IMG/VR virus record: IMGVR_UViG_3300042198_000178
Location: 1-37,879 of that record
Strand: one strand, 5' to 3'
Length of the DNA: 37,879 bases
Origin: a virus
The position numbers and the translations under genes were made by a program. Shown here in pieces: positions 409 to 37,840 of the stretch. The notes below the pieces were generated by a model that was not told the DNA's origin, made no database searches, and saw only the letters and a program-made list of their open reading frames with translations. How positions within the stretch are numbered: the first letter of the stretch is position 1; each line of letters starts with the position of its first letter.

Positions 409-3400
409 TTAAACCGAGTACGCCTCCACAATAACAAGTCCAGGCGCGCCATTTCCTCCGTGCACTTGCCAAGTCTTTCCGTCCCACGGGAAGTTACCTG
501 TGCCTTTGACTGCACCACCTCCGCCTGCCCCATAGCCTGTTGCGTCCTGACCATTTTGGAATTTATAATACCATACGCCAGAATCCATTTCTCCTACAAG
601 AGTTCCGCCTGCATCTCGAACTTGATAGTGTGCCTGAGACAGTCCTGCGGTTCTCATGTTCCATGGAGCAGCGGTGTTTCCTCGAATGGCTATGGTAGTA
701 GAAAGAATATTTCCTTGTGTAGCAAATGGGGCAGAGCTAAAGAAATGAGCAGTACCGGCTGCATTGACCGCTTCAATTCCAAAATGTCCATTTGCATCAG
801 TGGGTGCCGTGTTCGACCCAGTTTCTTTTTTAATTTTTAGTGCATACCCCAACACAAGGCTTGTTGTTCCTAAAATAAAATCTGTTTTCGTGAACCAGTT
901 TGTATCATATGATAAATCAGAGGACGTAGGTCCTACTAGTTTTAACGAAGTAAGATTTGCTGACACGTTCGCATTAAACGCAGTAAATGTCATATACATG
1001 AGAGTATTTGTTGTTCTTCCCCATGTGGTAGAAACAGTTGTACTAGAGACATTTATTTCTCTAGGAGGATTAAATGAATTGGTAAAGCCAGGAGAACCTG
1101 TGATTGGAGGAGATCCAGAAAAATAGGAACCTTTTGCAATTCTGAAAATAAAATACTCCAAGAAAGAAGGTGCGGAGAGTCCCAAAGTATTATCCTGATG
1201 CCCTATTAATGCTTGTATTGTTGCACCAGGAGTTGTTCCCGCCTCAGATGTGATATCAACAAACCAGGCTCCTCCAAAAAAGGCAACGTTCGTTCCCTGA
1301 CCCGCAAATTGTGCGGAGTTTGTTACGAATTGAATTTGTGCGCCACCCAAAAAACCAGAAAGATCAATAAAATCATTATTTACGTCTCTGACATTAGAAG
1401 ACGCCACGAAAATAAGTCTATCTCCAACCTCTCTTTCTGGAAGAGGAATCTGAAATCTACCTTGAAATAGATTAAGAGCGGTAAAATCAGTTGTTACTCC
1501 CTTTGTAATTGAAAGAATGTGCGGTGCGGCTCCGTACGCAACAGGAGTCGTGCTTGTTGCCGCAGATGATTCACTTGCGCCATTTGCGGTGTAAATTCCA
1601 GAAGGCGCTCCAAAAGAATACCAAAGATCATTAATAAAGTTCGACACAACATTTCCTGTATATACGGGATTTTGTCCTGGAGTGTTTCCTGATCCCTTGA
1701 TATTTGAAATAACAGGCGTTCGATCCGTTGTAATGATGCCGCCATATCCTCCGCGACCAAATGGAGTCGAACCGCCTTTGCCTCCGTAAATTGGCCATAT
1801 AGAGCCTGGCGCATTATATGTTACTCGTCCTGCGGTATCATTTGAAATTAGACCCGTCCAAGGCAAACCAAGAGCGGGAAGATCGGCGGATACTCCTTGA
1901 CTTAAGCCGCGAAACACGTCCCAGAAATTTGGATTTTCTGTATATACTCCAGCATCTTTTACGGCATTGTTTGAGCCTTTGATGTAGCCTTGCCATTGAT
2001 CTCCTGGTCGCGCGTCTGGAGATGCAAGAGATCGTCCAATAGTAGACAGCACATCGGAAGATCCTGCCATGTCGCTGTATGGACTATGTAAGCGTGAGTT
2101 GGGATCTGATGCAGATGCGCGTTCTGAACCTGAACGATGCGCAGTTATAATATTGTTTGTTGACGGCGCTCCTGGAACCCGCACAAAACTTGTATTTCCA
2201 AACCAAGAATCTCCACCATTTCCTGCGCCTCCGCTTCGAGTTGTTCCGCCTCCTCCCACAAACAACGATGCGGTTGCTCCAAACGAAGATGCTGGGCCTG
2301 ACCAATACGCGACCGATCCTGCTGCTCCTGGCCCTCCAAAAAAAGCAGAAGTTGTAAGACGATTGACATGAGTGTTTACATTGTATACGCGAGGAAACCA
2401 GCTGGTTTCGTTTGAGTTCCATACATTAAGAGATGATCCTCCTGCCGCTCCGCCAGACATTACCATAATGTTTATGTACGATGCCTTGTCTGGTTTTGTC
2501 CATGTGTACTGAGTTCCTGGTGACTGGCCTGTTATTCCTGCGAAATTAGATGTCGTATATACATTGCGAGAAATAAGTCTGCCAAAGGTATTTTTTGTTG
2601 GAACTGCACTCAACGCAATCATAAGAGAGTTGACAGCATTTGGTGTTACTGCAAGAGATGTAGATGTCGAGTTAAATCCGTCAAATAAACGAACGGTGCC
2701 GTTTGCGGATGTGTTTCCTTCTGCATATGCATTTGACGTAATTGTAACTCCAGAATTACCTGATGACTGTAGAACAATTCCTGGCCCCGCAATCAAGTTT
2801 GCGGAAACGGTAATTGAGCCATTTGCAGATGATACAATTATTCCGTGACCAGGAGTAATCTGTCCTGTTTCTAGTTGCTGTGACAGAGTATTTCCAATAA
2901 GTATTTTTCCGACCTCATGCGATGACTTTCCAGTTCCGCCTCGTTCTTGTTCAACAACATATGTTGTAACTGCCGATGCATTTGATGTAACTGAATTTGC
3001 AAAAATCAATGCGGCGCGAACAGAATTTGCGGCCGCGGGAAGAGAGTTTGAATTTGATGTAATTGAATCAATAACATTTGCGGTAATTAATATTGACTGT
3101 CCTAGAGCGACGGTAGATATATTTGATGAAAGTCCATTTGCGGCAACAATTGTAATTGTTGCATTTTGTAGTTGAGAATTATTTGCAACTCCAAGTAAAG
3201 ACAACGCATTGATTGAAAACAGTTGCGAACCATTTCCTCTAATTGTTCCATTCGCAACATTTAATGCAACAAAAGATGAGTTTGATACAGAAATTATTAC
3301 ATTTCCATTTACAACAAAAGATGTGTCAGTAATCGTGTTGATTCGTGTTGCCAACTCATTAAGAGAAAGCCTCAGAAAATTCATATTACTTGAAGTAAGA

Positions 3401-3423
3401 ACTGGACTTTGAATACTAGACAT
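409..3423 (-). CDS. Large tail fibre / adhesin with glycine-rich tip (paralogue 1)
   Basis: A 1004-residue fibre protein, the longest of three adjacent paralogues. Residues 52-95 carry the shared N-terminal signature (LNVANGTIRGNG, then NSQLQNATITI). Residues 161-180 hold a GGTG repeat typical of phage fibre shafts. From residue 281 (GRLISRNVYT) and the YTWTKP strand at 306 onwards comes a glycine-rich domain that closes with GGNGAPGLVIVEAYSV at the C-terminus. Compared with its two neighbours it carries an extra non-glycine-rich block at roughly residues 635-950, which may be a separate receptor-binding module. Glycine-rich domains of this type occur in phage tail fibres and in the gp38-type adhesins of T-even phages; here they are fused to the shaft. 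The start codon overlaps the stop of the upstream fibre gene by 8 bases, so the two are translationally coupled. The family-level call is firm; the receptor is unknown. Confidence 0.8.
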   Translation of the reverse strand: MSSIQSPVLTSSNMNFLRLSLNELATRINTITDTSFVVNGNVIISVSNSSFVALNVANGTIRGNGSQLFSINALSLLGVANNSQLQNATITIVAANGLSSNISTVALGQSILITANVIDSITSNSNSLPAAANSVRAALIFANSVTSNASAVTTYVVEQERGGTGKSSHEVGKILIGNTLSQQLETGQITPGHGIIVSSANGSITVSANLIAGPGIVLQSSGNSGVTITSNAYAEGNTSANGTVRLFDGFNSTSTSLAVTPNAVNSLMIALSAVPTKNTFGRLISRNVYTTSNFAGITGQSPGTQYTWTKPDKASYINIMVMSGGAAGGSSLNVWNSNETSWFPRVYNVNTHVNRLTTSAFFGGPGAAGSVAYWSGPASSFGATASLFVGGGGTTRSGGAGNGGDSWFGNTSFVRVPGAPSTNNIITAHRSGSERASASDPNSRLHSPYSDMAGSSDVLSTIGRSLASPDARPGDQWQGYIKGSNNAVKDAGVYTENPNFWDVFRGLSQGVSADLPALGLPWTGLISNDTAGRVTYNAPGSIWPIYGGKGGSTPFGRGGYGGIITTDRTPVISNIKGSGNTPGQNPVYTGNVVSNFINDLWYSFGAPSGIYTANGASESSAATSTTPVAYGAAPHILSITKGVTTDFTALNLFQGRFQIPLPEREVGDRLIFVASSNVRDVNNDFIDLSGFLGGAQIQFVTNSAQFAGQGTNVAFFGGAWFVDITSEAGTTPGATIQALIGHQDNTLGLSAPSFLEYFIFRIAKGSYFSGSPPITGSPGFTNSFNPPREINVSSTTVSTTWGRTTNTLMYMTFTAFNANVSANLTSLKLVGPTSSDLSYDTNWFTKTDFILGTTSLVLGYALKIKKETGSNTAPTDANGHFGIEAVNAAGTAHFFSSAPFATQGNILSTTIAIRGNTAAPWNMRTAGLSQAHYQVRDAGGTLVGEMDSGVWYYKFQNGQDATGYGAGGGGAVKGTGNFPWDGKTWQVHGGNGAPGLVIVEAYSV

Positions 3424-5248
3424 TTACATAACTTTCTATTTTAACATATGCAAAACCACCATTTGCCCCTGGAACATCTCGTGTTCCTCCGTTTGTTGTG
3501 TTTCCGTCAAACACACTGTACGGACCTTCTCCGCCTACGCCATAGTTGATTCTTCCCTGCATGTTTGCAACATTTGAAGAAGACTGTAACTGTTCTCCTG
3601 TTGGAAGCTGAATTGTAGGAGATGCAGGCCCGCCGTAATCATCTATAAATCGAGACAGTGTTCCATACCGCTCTGATGTTGGAAAATACGCATCTCCGAT
3701 TGCGTATGGATATACAGGCGACGCTCCTTGTCCTCCTACAACCATTTTTCCTTCGTAATATGTAGTTGCGTTTCTGCCTGTTCGAAATACCATTCCTGGA
3801 AGACCATGCATTCCTGCACTTTTCATGACAACAGTGCCGTATGTTGCATTCGCAAACGCGCGAGAGATTCCAGCAAAGGAACGAGAAAGTCCAGTTGTTA
3901 CATTTGCATCATTTGCAAAACTTATAAGTTTATTTGTTGGTCCCGCGCGGCCGCCCTCTAGATGAAACAGATATGATGTTGGAGGATCTCCTGCTCCGCC
4001 TTTAACTCCTATTGTTACATTTCCTCCATTTGTTCCTGCATTTCCTGGAGCTGCTCCTCCAGTCTCCCCTCGTCTTCCAATCTGTCCAATCTTGATTGTA
4101 AGTGTGTTTGCAGCATTGTCATCATTAAAAAGACGAATATCGTCTGCTGTTATAATTGCCTGTATTGATGCTCCTGCGCCTCCTCCAATTGATGTAACGG
4201 CAGGAGGAGCAGTTATTGTTCCAGGTACCACTCCGTTATTTGCCGATGCCGATCCGCCTCCGCATGCCACTGCCGTAACGATTGCGTACGCAAAATCTGT
4301 TTCCCAACCAACAGGCCGCGTCCAAATAAAAGTATTTCCTGCACCGTTTGCAAGATTCGTATATGTTCGAACCTCAATAAGTCTTCCGTAGGCATTGATT
4401 GACGCTGGATTTTGTACGGCTTTTCGAGACTCCATAAAGTTGGACACCGCATTTAAAGAGTTTGCGGTTGCTCCAAGAGTTGTAGATGTAGATGTGGTAT
4501 TATCATTAAGTCGAATAAGTCCTGCAACACTTGTTGTTCCTAAAGGCGCAGCATTTTGAGTAAAAGATATTCCACCATTACTTCCAATGTACGTAACTGT
4601 TACATTTTCTCCTTGAATAATATTTGCAGTAAGAGTAATAGAACCAGCACCGCTTGTTACGAGAATTCCAGTATTTGGAGCAATAGTATTTGGAGATAAA
4701 TGATTGTTGCTGTGAGTAAGTAATATCTGTCCGTTTGTGTAAGAGACTGTTCCTGTTCCTCCTACATTTACTGCAAATACTCCTGTTGTTTTTTGAATTG
4801 TAAGAGTTGGCGTAATGGGATCAAGTAGACTTTTAACTGCATTTGCAGATGCGGCAAAAATAGTGCTTGTATCATTTTTTGAATCAACAACATTACTTGA
4901 CGTAAGTGTTGTTATTGGGCTTCCGCCAAGAGTTGCAATTCCATTACTTTGTATTCCAGTTCCAGAATGAATCGTAATTGTTGTATTTTGTAACTGAGAA
5001 TTGACAAACTGTCCGAATATGCCTGTTGAAAAGGGAATTGAAAATATTTGCGCGCCGTTGCCTGAAATAATTCCATTTGCAACATTTAAAGAAACAAGAC
5101 CCGCAACAGGAGCGGCAGGATTAACAGTCACTGTTCCCGTTGTAATATACGCATTACTTGTAATATAATTAAGCGCAAGAATACATTGATTTGTAATAGT
5201 ACGAAAAAACTCTAACGAATTTGAAAGGTCGACATTTACAATAGGCAT
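3416..5248 (-). CDS. Tail fibre / adhesin with glycine-rich tip (paralogue 2)
   Basis: A 610-residue fibre protein, middle member of the three-gene set. Residues 51-92 repeat the N-terminal signature (VSLNVANGIISGNG, NSQLQNTTITI). GGTG with a following YTNGQILL strand is at 163-176. The segment STSTTLGATANSLNAVSN at 253-270 has a counterpart in both neighbours. From residue 288 (GRLIEVRTYT) and FIWTRP at 307 begins a glycine-rich domain ending in an aromatic-valine C-terminus, YVKIESYVNV. Upstream of the ATG is AAGGAAC, a reasonable Shine-Dalgarno sequence. The conserved N-terminus suggests that all three proteins dock on the same baseplate or fibre component and differ mainly in receptor-facing parts. 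They could instead assemble as a hetero-oligomeric fibre. Confidence 0.8.
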   Translation of the reverse strand: MPIVNVDLSNSLEFFRTITNQCILALNYITSNAYITTGTVTVNPAAPVAGLVSLNVANGIISGNGAQIFSIPFSTGIFGQFVNSQLQNTTITIHSGTGIQSNGIATLGGSPITTLTSSNVVDSKNDTSTIFAASANAVKSLLDPITPTLTIQKTTGVFAVNVGGTGTVSYTNGQILLTHSNNHLSPNTIAPNTGILVTSGAGSITLTANIIQGENVTVTYIGSNGGISFTQNAAPLGTTSVAGLIRLNDNTTSTSTTLGATANSLNAVSNFMESRKAVQNPASINAYGRLIEVRTYTNLANGAGNTFIWTRPVGWETDFAYAIVTAVACGGGSASANNGVVPGTITAPPAVTSIGGGAGASIQAIITADDIRLFNDDNAANTLTIKIGQIGRRGETGGAAPGNAGTNGGNVTIGVKGGAGDPPTSYLFHLEGGRAGPTNKLISFANDANVTTGLSRSFAGISRAFANATYGTVVMKSAGMHGLPGMVFRTGRNATTYYEGKMVVGGQGASPVYPYAIGDAYFPTSERYGTLSRFIDDYGGPASPTIQLPTGEQLQSSSNVANMQGRINYGVGGEGPYSVFDGNTTNGGTRDVPGANGGFAYVKIESYVNV

Positions 5249-5265
5249 GTGATTTCGTTCCTTAC

Positions 5266-6942
5266 TTAAACGCTCGAATATACTTTAATTATGACGAGTC
5301 CATTTGCCCCCGATGCTCCAGATACGGCTCCCGCTGCTCCACGCGACTCATTGAATGCTCCTCCTCCGCCTCCACCACCAAAACCACTTCCGTTTGGTTG
5401 CTGCGCGGCAGTTTCTCCATCGGGACCATACGTAATACAGTTTGCTCCGCCAGATATTGCGGTATTTACTGAATATGATACTCCGCCTCCTGCGCACCAG
5501 CCTGGAACAGATCCGCCGATTGAACCTATTACATTTCCAGGGCTAAGCCGCATAAAGACTCCAGATGGCTCGCCTGCAATACGAAGAGAATACTCTGGTT
5601 GCGGAAAGATAGACGAAGGAACTGATGCGGTTGCAAGAGCAGGAGTTAACAACTCATCTTGGTACAAATATCCATACTGTCTTTCTCGCGCAATGGTGTT
5701 CCAAGTATGAATAATTGGAAGATTCGCAGACGAGTTTGTAACGGTTATTGTGAGACCTCCATTGCCACCTTGAGCAACATAGCGTTCGGAAGAATTGGAG
5801 GTATTTGCAAATATTGTATCTCCTCCTTTATATCCGACTCGCGCGATTGCCCCTGTACTATTTCCGCCATGTCCAACTGTGACTGTCATTGTTGAATGTA
5901 CATTATCATTAGCAATCGACGCATATAAAAGTGCTCCTGCATAGCCGCCCATGCCGTAGGTATATGTTGCCGCAGAAAGATTTCCTGAATTTGCTCCGGC
6001 ACCTCCTCCGCCTCCTCCAATCATAACAATATCAACATATCTTGTATTTGCGGGCTTTGTCCATGTAAATGTTCCTGGAGTCGAATACACGGATATCTGA
6101 ATTAATCTTCCTGATACATCTGGAAGAGTGGGCGGAAGAGTTGTGTCTACTCTGACATATGCGGCATTGATTGCATTTGCGGTTGCTGCTTGTGTTGTTG
6201 ATGTTGATGTGAGCGTATCATTTAATTGCACAAAACCATTTGTTGTCGTTGATGCAACTGGAGTAAGAAGACGAATTCTATTGCCTCCAGTTATTTCAAC
6301 GTTTTGTCCTGCAATCAAGTTTGCAGAAAAACTAAGAGATCCATTTCCATACGATGCAGAAATTCCTGCTCCTGGACGAATTGTATTTGCAACAAGACTT
6401 CCTTCGGTTGTTCCAATAAGTGTTGCGCCAAGTGTTCCAGAATACGTGTTATATCCAGTTCCACCATACTGCACCTGAAGAGTACCAGTAGTCACAAGAC
6501 TTGCATTTTGTCCAGCACCAAAAATGATTGCATTTGCATTTGACACTGCCGCGGCCGCGACTGCAATGTTTGACCATGTATTTGTAAAAGAATTAACAGG
6601 AACAAGATTAAGTCTAATTGCTGATCCTAGAGAAACAACTCCGCCTCCATTTGTTCCAACTCCCGCAACTACTGTAATTGAAGAGTTTTGTAGCTGAGAG
6701 TTTCGAAGTGTATTGATTGTCACCGCGCGAGAATTAACAGAAAAAAGATTTGCTCCATTTCCTGCAATAATTCCGACCGCAACATTCAGCGAGACATGAG
6801 ATGCATTTGCACCTCGAATAATCAAGTTGCCAGTTGTTGTGACTCCCGACGCAAGTAAACTGTTAATGTTGGAAGATATTTGATTTAATACTTGTCTTCC
6901 AAAATCAATTGTGTTTGTTATGGCAATAGTACTAATCGGCAT
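5266..6942 (-). CDS. Tail fibre / adhesin with glycine-rich tip (paralogue 3)
   Basis: A 558-residue fibre protein, first of the three in transcription order. The N-terminal signature is at about 50-92 (VSLNVAVGIIAGNG, NSQLQNSSITV), and a GGTGYNTY repeat follows at about 160. The glycine-rich domain begins after FTWTKPANTRYVDIVMIGG with a run of six glycines. A second run of eight glycines lies near the C-terminus, which ends GLVIIKVYSSV. This is the clearest example in the window of the glycine-rich sandwich domain. The ATG lies inside the last codons of the upstream coiled-coil gene (11-base overlap), so translation is coupled. There is no dedicated tail-fibre chaperone gene next to it unless the small upstream gene serves that role. 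Confidence 0.8.
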   Translation of the reverse strand: MPISTIAITNTIDFGRQVLNQISSNINSLLASGVTTTGNLIIRGANASHVSLNVAVGIIAGNGANLFSVNSRAVTINTLRNSQLQNSSITVVAGVGTNGGGVVSLGSAIRLNLVPVNSFTNTWSNIAVAAAAVSNANAIIFGAGQNASLVTTGTLQVQYGGTGYNTYSGTLGATLIGTTEGSLVANTIRPGAGISASYGNGSLSFSANLIAGQNVEITGGNRIRLLTPVASTTTNGFVQLNDTLTSTSTTQAATANAINAAYVRVDTTLPPTLPDVSGRLIQISVYSTPGTFTWTKPANTRYVDIVMIGGGGGGAGANSGNLSAATYTYGMGGYAGALLYASIANDNVHSTMTVTVGHGGNSTGAIARVGYKGGDTIFANTSNSSERYVAQGGNGGLTITVTNSSANLPIIHTWNTIARERQYGYLYQDELLTPALATASVPSSIFPQPEYSLRIAGEPSGVFMRLSPGNVIGSIGGSVPGWCAGGGVSYSVNTAISGGANCITYGPDGETAAQQPNGSGFGGGGGGGAFNESRGAAGAVSGASGANGLVIIKVYSSV

Positions 6943-36092: not shown

Positions 36093-36126
36093 AGATATAA
36101 AAGAGAACGGGGGTTGCCCGTTCTCT
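36093..36126 (-). terminator. Intrinsic terminator of the tmRNA gene
   Basis: On the minus strand AGAGAACGGG (36117-36126) pairs perfectly with CCCGTTCTCT (36102-36111) around a 5-base loop, followed by TTTTATAT. It ends the tmRNA transcript and lies only 39 bases before the lipoprotein start. Confidence 0.82.
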
Positions 36127-36168
36127 CATAACGATTTTTCTGTTGCCAAGAAAATCGTCAAACTCCGT

Positions 36169-36210
36169 TCAGGCTGCTAGAGCCATCTCATATGCCTCAT
36201 TATCGTTGGC
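36169..36210 (-). other. tmRNA proteolysis tag reading frame
   Basis: GCC AAC GAT AAT and on to GCC TGA encodes ANDNEAYEMALAA. AND at the start and ALAA at the end are hallmarks of tmRNA tags; ALAA-type ends are recognised by ClpXP. Confidence 0.92.
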
Positions 36211-36298
36211 ATTTCCGAGTTTGATCCTATTTCGCGGATCAGACGATTATCTCCAGTTACATCGTACAAGCAGTCGAACCTATTTCATCCCCATCAGA

Positions 36299-36396
36299 AG
36301 CGCATGTAGGGAGATCCGCCCTCCCGTACTCAGGTTAAAAGCCTGAGAACTTAGTCTAATTGCACGCATCCGCATGTCCCAGTTCATACATGCGCT
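36299..36396 (-). repeat. Inverted repeat closing the tmRNA intervening segment
   Basis: AGCGCATGT at 36299-36307 and ACATGCGCT at 36388-36396 are perfect 9-base inverted repeats that flank the excised interval, extending the acceptor stem. Inside are two further hairpins, CTCAGG/CCTGAG and GGGAG/CTCCC. The structure would hold the two halves together before processing. Confidence 0.8.
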
Positions 36397-36466
36397 TTTG
36401 GTGGAGATGTCGGGTACCGCCCCCGAGTCCTACTTATTTTCAATAACCTTCATCGACAATACTTCT

Positions 36467-36497
36467 TATTTATACACTAACCATATTCGGTTGTCAA
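36467..36497 (-). promoter_or_regulatory. tmRNA promoter: host sigma70 type overlapping a late promoter
   Basis: On the minus strand TTGACA (36492-36497) is followed by exactly 17 bases and TATAAA (36469-36474). The same site reads TATAAATA (36467-36474), a perfect T4 late promoter. Transcription should start near 36462. Confidence 0.8.
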
Positions 36498-36507
36498 GCA
36501 CAAAGTT

Positions 36508-37044
36508 TTAGAAAATTAACATTTGACGGTTTTCTGCGGGTGTGTATGTAGAGGGTGCGACACTTTGTCCATCTAGCTGAAGGTCTCGCACATTTTTTGT
36601 GATGGAAATAACGCATGTGATGTTCCTTGATTCAAAGGAAGAGGTCACAACAACGGTATATCCTTGAGTGGAAAGTTTCTTCCAAAAAGACATCATGAAA
36701 TTATTTCCGCGAATGTCCTGAGACGATCCCATGGAATATATTTCAAACCCTTCTTCAAACAATCCAATGACAATATCGTCGGATTTAGCACATGCCGCAT
36801 TCAATGGCATCAGCACTCCATTTGGAGAGTCTGAAATATCTGTTTGCTCGAATTGTTGGCCCAATCCATCACTATCGCCTTTTACATAATAATTAACTCC
36901 TATTAAGATTGCAAGAATCACAAGAAGGACAACACATGTGTAAAATACAAGTTTTGAATCTCGCGACATTAAAATGGCCGCAACATTAATTGCGGACATG
37001 TCGATTTTTGTGTTAGTTGTTGGTGGTGGTGTCGTTGTTGTCAT
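36508..37044 (-). CDS. Single-pass membrane protein of unknown function
   Basis: A protein of 178 residues from the ATG at 37044 (MTTTTPPPTT), or up to 195 from 37095. Both overlap the upstream exonuclease gene; a third possible start (MSAINVAA, 36999) would not. It has one strong membrane segment, KLVFYTCVVLLVILAILIGV, followed by a mixed-charge domain of about 120 residues (VIGLFEEGFEIYSMGSS, YTVVVTSSFESRN, ITCVISITKNVRDL). With Arg and Lys before the segment the C-terminal domain is expected in the periplasm. I do not recognise the family. An inner-membrane spanin or exclusion protein would be possible but unsupported. Its stop codon is 11 bases upstream of the tmRNA promoter. Confidence 0.65.
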   Translation of the reverse strand: MTTTTPPPTTNTKIDMSAINVAAILMSRDSKLVFYTCVVLLVILAILIGVNYYVKGDSDGLGQQFEQTDISDSPNGVLMPLNAACAKSDDIVIGLFEEGFEIYSMGSSQDIRGNNFMMSFWKKLSTQGYTVVVTSSFESRNITCVISITKNVRDLQLDGQSVAPSTYTPAENRQMLIF

Positions 37045-37840
37045 AAAATTTCTCTGCCAAAAGGGTGAGTTGTTTGTCATATTCATAGCCGTCATAAAAT
37101 TCTTCGATCATGCGAAGAAGTTGATCTTTGTAATCTGAAGTCTGTTTGATAAAAACTTGTGGTGGATAGTATGAATCTTTTACCGAAATGATGGTTACGA
37201 CCTGATCGATTTTTATTCCAGTTCTTTCTTCAAACATAAGAGCATAGCCCGTTTCTTGAAGAAAGTAATTTTGAATCCATTCTTCTTTTTTTGGTCGCGC
37301 CGAAGTCTTGTGATCGATAACCGAAAGCACTCCGTTATATTCTGCAATGCAATCTACCGTTCCTGCAATTTTGTATTGCTCAGAGTATAGCGCCTTTTCG
37401 ATGCACATGATGTTATCGATATTATCGACCCGCTTTCTTGCATTTGTAAGAGTAAGAACTTGAAGAGGATCCAAATCTTCATCTCTTAGCTGATTTTGAA
37501 GATACGACTCCATTAATGCATGATAGTTTTTTCCGCGAGTTGTCGCCTCGGCAGATATTTTTGCTGCTTTTTCTTCTCCAACCTTCTTTTTCCATTCTTC
37601 AATCTTTGCCTTGCTTGGTCCCACTGCCCCAAGTAGGGTAGTCATAGATATCGCTGTAGAACCGTTTGGAAGAATATAATATCTCATCCCGTTCTTGTCC
37701 GTCGACTCTAACGAAGCTATCTTCGTCACTGAAGCGGGCACGTGCCATTGAAAGGTCTTGAGAGGAGTCGGAAGTTTTGGAGACTGAAGAAACGGAAGAG
37801 GACTTGTCATAATTTTCGGGCATCCATTTTTGTGAACCAT
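37013..37840 (-). CDS. PD-(D/E)XK exonuclease (RecB/MGME1-like)
   Basis: A 275-residue nuclease of the PD-(D/E)XK superfamily, similar in motif arrangement to RecB-like and MGME1-type exonucleases that many marine T4-like phages carry. Motifs seen are RGKNYHALMESYL at 102-114 (His107), a Glu in CIEKALYS (148), AGTVDCIAEYNG at 159-170 (Asp163), VIDHKTS at 174-180 (Asp176, Lys178) and the helix YFLQETGYALMFEE with Gln195. The N-terminal NGMRYYILPNGSTAISMTTLL (about 50-70) is the family's leading beta strand. The start at 37840 follows an in-frame stop; ATG at 37810 is an alternative, neither having a clear Shine-Dalgarno sequence. Likely role: processing of DNA ends in recombination or degradation of host DNA. 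Confidence 0.82.
   Translation of the reverse strand: MVHKNGCPKIMTSPLPFLQSPKLPTPLKTFQWHVPASVTKIASLESTDKNGMRYYILPNGSTAISMTTLLGAVGPSKAKIEEWKKKVGEEKAAKISAEATTRGKNYHALMESYLQNQLRDEDLDPLQVLTLTNARKRVDNIDNIMCIEKALYSEQYKIAGTVDCIAEYNGVLSVIDHKTSARPKKEEWIQNYFLQETGYALMFEERTGIKIDQVVTIISVKDSYYPPQVFIKQTSDYKDQLLRMIEEFYDGYEYDKQLTLLAEKFYDNNDTTTNN

Follow-up and report, generated by a model that had tools for sequence, protein, structure and literature searches.

A tmRNA gene in a T4-like phage genome raises two questions: whether the gene is complete and autonomous, and what occupies the segment between its two halves. The window, i.e., the whole analyzed stretch of 37,879 nucleotides from the viral record IMGVR_UViG_3300042198_000178, belongs to a T4-like phage, since genes for gp32, gp59, a gp33-like late coactivator, and the gp6 baseplate wedge are located near the tmRNA, the last being related to the homologues of Melnitz, HTVC008M, and Mosig. 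Upstream of the tmRNA lies a gene for a PD-(D/E)XK exonuclease, and the 195-aa protein encoded between the two (36508-37095) has no Pfam or PHROG match. Elsewhere in the window, the interval 409-6942 encodes three large tail-fibre-like proteins in succession, all rich in glycine and with similar N-terminal sequences, which suggests duplication.

At the locus we found a complete permuted (two-piece) tmRNA of the alphaproteobacterial type on the minus strand, spanning about 36462 to 36128 and having a promoter and a terminator of its own. Its features are as follows.

36492-36497, minus strand: promoter -35 hexamer TTGACA (read by eye as TTGACA-N17-TATAAA, 36497-36469)
36467-36474, minus strand: promoter -10 TATAAA, octamer TATAAATA (from the sequence)
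36399-36437, minus strand: tmRNA acceptor piece with the 3' half of the inter-piece helix, T-arm (GGCGGTA), CATCTCC, and CCA (ARAGORN, RF01849/RF04321)
36293-36398, minus strand: intervening segment, 106 nt, a conserved structured RNA element (leave-one-out model, covariation, fold)
36387-36397, minus strand: element P1, 5' arm AAGCGCATGTA, partner at 36298-36308 (fold; P1 covaries in relatives)
36351-36386, minus strand: element core with TGAACTGGGA, P2 hairpin CATGC-GGAT-GCGTG, CAATTAG, and ACTAA (alignments A1 and A2)
36326-36350, minus strand: element P3 hairpin GTTCTCAGG-CTTTTAA-CCTGAGTAC with a conserved U-U mismatch (alignment, covariation)
36309-36325, minus strand: element P4, T-arm-like, with GGGAG, loop GGCGGAT, and CTCCC, stacked on P1 (alignment, covariation)
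36298-36308, minus strand: element P1, 3' arm TACATGCGCTT (fold, covariation)
36266-36292, minus strand: 5' domain of the tmRNA coding piece with GGGGATG, D-loop, and the 5' half of the inter-piece helix (ARAGORN, Rfam)
36169-36210, minus strand: tag frame GCC AAC GAT AAT GAG GCA TAT GAG ATG GCT CTA GCA GCC TGA, encoding ANDNEAYEMALAA* (ARAGORN)
36128-36168, minus strand: 3' part of the coding piece, up to the end of the RF01849 model (Rfam)
36101-36127, minus strand: intrinsic terminator, 11 pairs and a T run (terminator scan)

Two Rfam families matched the window, both of them tmRNA. RF04321 scored 116.7 bits (E 2.5e-22, 36460-36169) and RF01849 (alpha_tmRNA) scored 98.4 bits (E 7.3e-26, 36501-36128), the latter over the whole model from end to end; both scores are far above the gathering cut-offs of 47 and 50 bits, respectively. 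ARAGORN also called a permuted tmRNA with the tag ANDNEAYEMALAA, which was the sole RNA gene called in the window. The acceptor half is encoded upstream of the coding half, as is characteristic of the permuted form, and GGGGATG (36292-36286) pairs with CATCTCC (36409-36403) over seven positions with a single G-U, which is G3-U70, the alanine identity pair. CCA is encoded, the inter-piece helix is present, the T-loop GGCGGTA equals the RF01849 consensus, and the tag frame includes a resume codon, a protease signal at its end, and a stop. Thus, the first-pass annotation, which had given no strand, was right about a permuted two-piece tmRNA in a T4-like genome and about acceptor strands pairing over seven positions with one G-U, and the RF01849 search that it had proposed was positive. 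It had also placed the acceptor strands 100 bases apart; a gap is indeed there, measuring 106 nt between the halves (36293-36398), and what had gone unnoticed is that this gap is a structured RNA.

A scan tool missed the promoter, as it accepts only -10 hexamers with T at position 6. The octamer TATAAATA equals the T4 late-promoter consensus, and since it is at once the -10 region and the late consensus, the gene could be expressed early as well as late. Transcription would start near 36462. The promoter and the 11-pair terminator frame the tmRNA, which argues for an independent transcript; this RNA would be about 360 nt from promoter to terminator, and in its predicted fold the acceptor stem, T-arm, inter-piece helix, and the element are all in place together. 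No smpB gene was found in 24 phage records, which points to a reliance on host SmpB. The tmRNA is probably an autonomous phage gene, and ribosome rescue by it during infection is plausible.

Three further points found less support. The gene type is not new: the two-piece tmRNA of Melnitz was reported in 2022, when 53 two-piece tmRNAs were counted in the phage database searched and 17 of the 47 contigs related to Melnitz were found to carry one (PMC9004378); moreover, the Mosig tmRNA is annotated at the same locus as that of the window. At least 119 viral-contig stretches match a single alphaproteobacterial T-arm pattern, and these together with the 2022 report place the window tmRNA in a known kind. 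The gene had further been thought to fix the host lineage. However, Melnitz has an alpha-type tmRNA and an OM43 host (PMC9004378), so the host cannot be read from the type of tmRNA. Among 80 relatives of the exonuclease, a permuted tmRNA follows the gene in nine loci (L213, L221-L223, L228-L230, L232, and L244), and Rfam assigned the betaproteobacterial type to all three of these that were checked. An alpha type in the window and a beta type beside the same exonuclease in relatives indicate that the locus swaps tmRNA types. Finally, redirection of proteolysis by the tag, which had been offered as a possibility, is unlikely because the tag ends in an ordinary ALAA. Unusually long or odd tags were called for six other viral two-piece tmRNAs (L031, L057, L064, L048, L042, and L026), e.g., ANDNALSNVTFVDFSAPVTAVNEDFALAA.

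The new part of the locus is the conserved RNA inside a segment usually regarded as a discarded spacer. The 106 nt between CCA (36399) and GGGG (36292) fold far better than shuffled sequences (z = -3.68 for the single sequence), forming a four-helix RNA with a T-arm. The leave-one-out covariance model R2, from which the window had been excluded, picked up the element as the single hit in the window, with 59.9 bits (E 4.9e-14), and copies left out of training scored 52 to 67 bits. RNAalifold on 22 distinct copies yielded the four helices with 27 pairs, 19 of which show compensatory changes. In a sequence-only alignment 96.1% of the pair cells are standard; double-change cells numbered 79 versus 22.3 (SD, 4.2) in shuffles, none of the 500 shuffles reached this value, and controls with slid partners gave 3 to 16 double changes.

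Invariant across the copies are GAACT, ACTAAGTT, and the TAC before P4, and the ACTAA of the core continues into the GTT of P3. P4 follows directly on P3 and runs directly into the P1 strand, the arrangement of a T-arm on an acceptor stem. Within its loop of seven, bases 1 and 5 are G/G in 24 copies and T/A in seven, and the two forms are never mixed. These bases correspond to positions 54 and 58, which close the T-loop in tRNA, and alphaproteobacterial tmRNA has the same G/G form. A link between the T-loop type of the element and that of the accompanying tmRNA was considered and is not strict, since L128 and L262 differ.

We also considered known RNAs as identities for the element. It has no RF00005 match, and ARAGORN in bacterial mode called no tRNA on the segment. 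A tRNA requires an anticodon arm of five pairs with a seven-base loop and a CCA end; the length of P3 and of its loop differs from copy to copy, and CCA is not encoded. A hidden tRNA-Lys(UUU) was suggested by the anticodon-like P3 loop CTTTTAA of the window, but the loops of relatives differ in both length and sequence, and this reading likewise lacks support from Rfam and from bacterial-mode ARAGORN. Homology to T4 RNA C or D is not supported, there being no model match. No family in Rfam 15 matches the element, and we found no description of it in the freely accessible literature.

Motif searches located the element in 46 viral records besides the window, several of which are near-identical, so that independent lineages are fewer (alignment A2 holds about 30 distinct sequences). 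The copies reside in 29 tmRNA intervening segments, in 10 promoter-to-tmRNA intervals (L166, L168, L255, and L257-L263), between tRNA genes in six records (L152, L153, L155, L158, L159, and L254), and, in one case (L167), just behind a promoter and before a small gene, a 37-aa reading frame. In L135 and L139, counted among the 29, the element comes after a second, reading-frame cassette in the intervening segment. Each of 26 records, out of 26, has a single copy. One record has the element within a tRNA array and, elsewhere, a tmRNA with a short intervening segment, indicating that the element is not tied to tmRNA. Six further pattern hits (L144, L147, L157, L164, L165, and L256) were dismissed as chance, having neither an adjoining tmRNA or tRNA nor a model match. 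A strict pattern gave no credible bacterial or archaeal copy in 84,980 genomes, although divergent copies could escape it; a bacterial origin was rejected, since the two hits obtained both lack the remainder of the element and are unmatched by model R1. Similarly, blastn of three element variants against the isolated phages of INPHARED returned no match, a search that divergent copies could also escape.

How the element might be produced is suggested by two-piece tmRNAs in general. A single transcript would begin at the start site given above and end at the hairpin at 36101-36127. Host tRNA-processing enzymes would then excise the intervening segment, leaving the acceptor and coding pieces held together by the acceptor stem and the inter-piece helix. 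Host AlaRS would charge this tmRNA via G3-U70, and host SmpB and EF-Tu would carry it to stalled ribosomes, where ANDNEAYEMALAA would be added for degradation. The ends of the segment are set by tmRNA maturation, and excision would therefore release the element, as a separate small RNA of about 106 nt with precise ends. In the tRNA arrays, these enzymes would free it likewise. One copy per record, together with the tRNA-array case, suggests that it is the RNA, and not its position, that the phage retains. The best reading of these sequence data is that the element would be a phage small RNA obtained from tRNA/tmRNA processing. Most likely, and this is a guess, it would bind a host protein that recognizes the tRNA elbow, whether to act as a decoy or to serve as a co-opted partner. 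We have good confidence in the overall account, namely, an autonomous two-piece tmRNA gene whose excised conserved element would be released as a small RNA.

Where the copies sit bears on this account and on its rivals alike. An element acting in cis, which would stabilize, process, or antiterminate (like the put RNA of phage HK022) the untranslated RNA operon that contains it or sense a ligand for it, is possible, if clearly the less likely reading. Ten copies follow immediately on a sigma70 promoter, where the tmRNA precursor begins and outside the part that is excised; the copy in a 5' untranslated region (L167) fits a leader equally well, and every copy is in an untranslated stable-RNA transcript or a leader. 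But the window and 29 other copies occur in the tmRNA intervening segment and six in tRNA arrays, with genes on both sides, and neither a visible expression platform nor an Rfam riboswitch was found. The spread of the copies over tmRNA loci, tRNA loci, and transcript starts, with a single copy in each record, favors a trans-acting tRNA-like RNA over the control of a single gene. A specific trans role, as a decoy for tRNA-cutting defense nucleases or for other host factors that bind the tRNA elbow, supplied by abundant transcripts of stable RNAs, appears unlikely. It would be in keeping with the T-arm and its coupled T-loop change, with the placement at tRNA and tmRNA loci, and with the role of phage tRNAs in countering tRNA-targeting defenses, as reported earlier (PMC10264068). 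Yet an anticodon-like loop is not conserved, P3 and its loop being variable in length, and no defense nuclease was linked to the element.

The two remaining explanations deny a function to one or the other part of the locus. That the tmRNA is a non-functional host relic carried by chance is very improbable: prophage-derived ssrA fragments do occur elsewhere (PMC9004378), but the gene in the window is complete, with G3-U70, an intact tag frame with its stop, a promoter, and a terminator, and a tmRNA is found at the same locus in Mosig and, as a beta type, beside the same exonuclease in other relatives. Least credible of all is an intervening segment of neutral filler that folds by chance. Other viral tmRNA segments do vary widely in length and content, and the element was present in just two of the 119 loci of the first viral tmRNA scan; the unchanging core of the element, its strong covariation, and the fact that it recurs in places other than tmRNA speak against filler, and the covariation counts already contradict it.

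In other phages, the intervening segments of tmRNAs hold other RNA or protein cargo, the latter as small reading frames. In L034 and L077, the segment encodes an identical 63-aa protein with seven synonymous and no non-synonymous codon differences, and this protein matches Pfam DUF6356 (E 5.1e-12); identity despite synonymous changes, together with the Pfam match, supports real nested genes. The segment looks like a site for exchangeable cargo. Segments of six loci (L004, L079, L106, L108, L135, and L139) encode a conserved protein of ~41 to 45 aa (xxW.SW.KG.PFQWGDFR...GPLLIRVF); in L135 and L139 its cassette comes first and is followed by a second one that carries the structured element. The segments of L010/L035, L067/L078, L046/L047, and L083 contain further small reading frames, and the ribosome sites of these are plausible. 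On balance, we lean towards an undescribed class of small structured phage RNA that would be freed by tRNA/tmRNA maturation, with the segment serving as a cargo site. These results make it testable whether phages exploit the maturation of tmRNA and tRNA as a source of additional small RNAs; the covariance model offers a direct route to more copies, also among cultivable phages, and the element may bear on the stable RNAs of the T4 tRNA cluster.

Among known systems, Melnitz (PMC9004378) and Mosig (MT647606) resemble the window in being T4-like marine phages with a permuted tmRNA. The gene order of Mosig, i.e., PD-(D/E)XK nuclease, hypothetical protein, annotated tmRNA, and gp33-like gene, is that of the window; its intervening segment, however, is short and without the element, whereas that of the window has 106 nt with it. 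Relative to alpha_tmRNA (RF01849), the window has about 80 extra nt in this segment, filled by the element. For Melnitz a glutamine riboswitch was reported (PMC9004378), whereas Rfam finds none in the window. A permuted tmRNA with tRNA-Ala in its intervening sequence is known from one nominally archaeal genome (PMC11915505); there, as in the window, a tRNA-like RNA is nested in the intervening sequence, but it is an intact tRNA, in contrast to the non-tRNA element, which forms a recurrent phage family.

The T4 tRNA cluster encodes two small stable RNAs, one of which, species 1 (RNA C), is likewise a small RNA from a phage tRNA cluster. To our knowledge, a function for these RNAs is still lacking. 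Species 1 is predicted to fold into a closing stem, one long and one shorter, P3-like hairpin, and a T-arm with the loop TTCGAAT; model R1 did not match T4 rnaC, so that the resemblance of this fold, predicted from a single sequence, to the element would be one of layout only. GOLLD RNA, a structured phage-linked RNA near tRNAs, is much larger than the element and has no Rfam match in any locus analyzed here. In its proposed maturation, the element would be released in a manner comparable to that of intron-encoded small RNAs.
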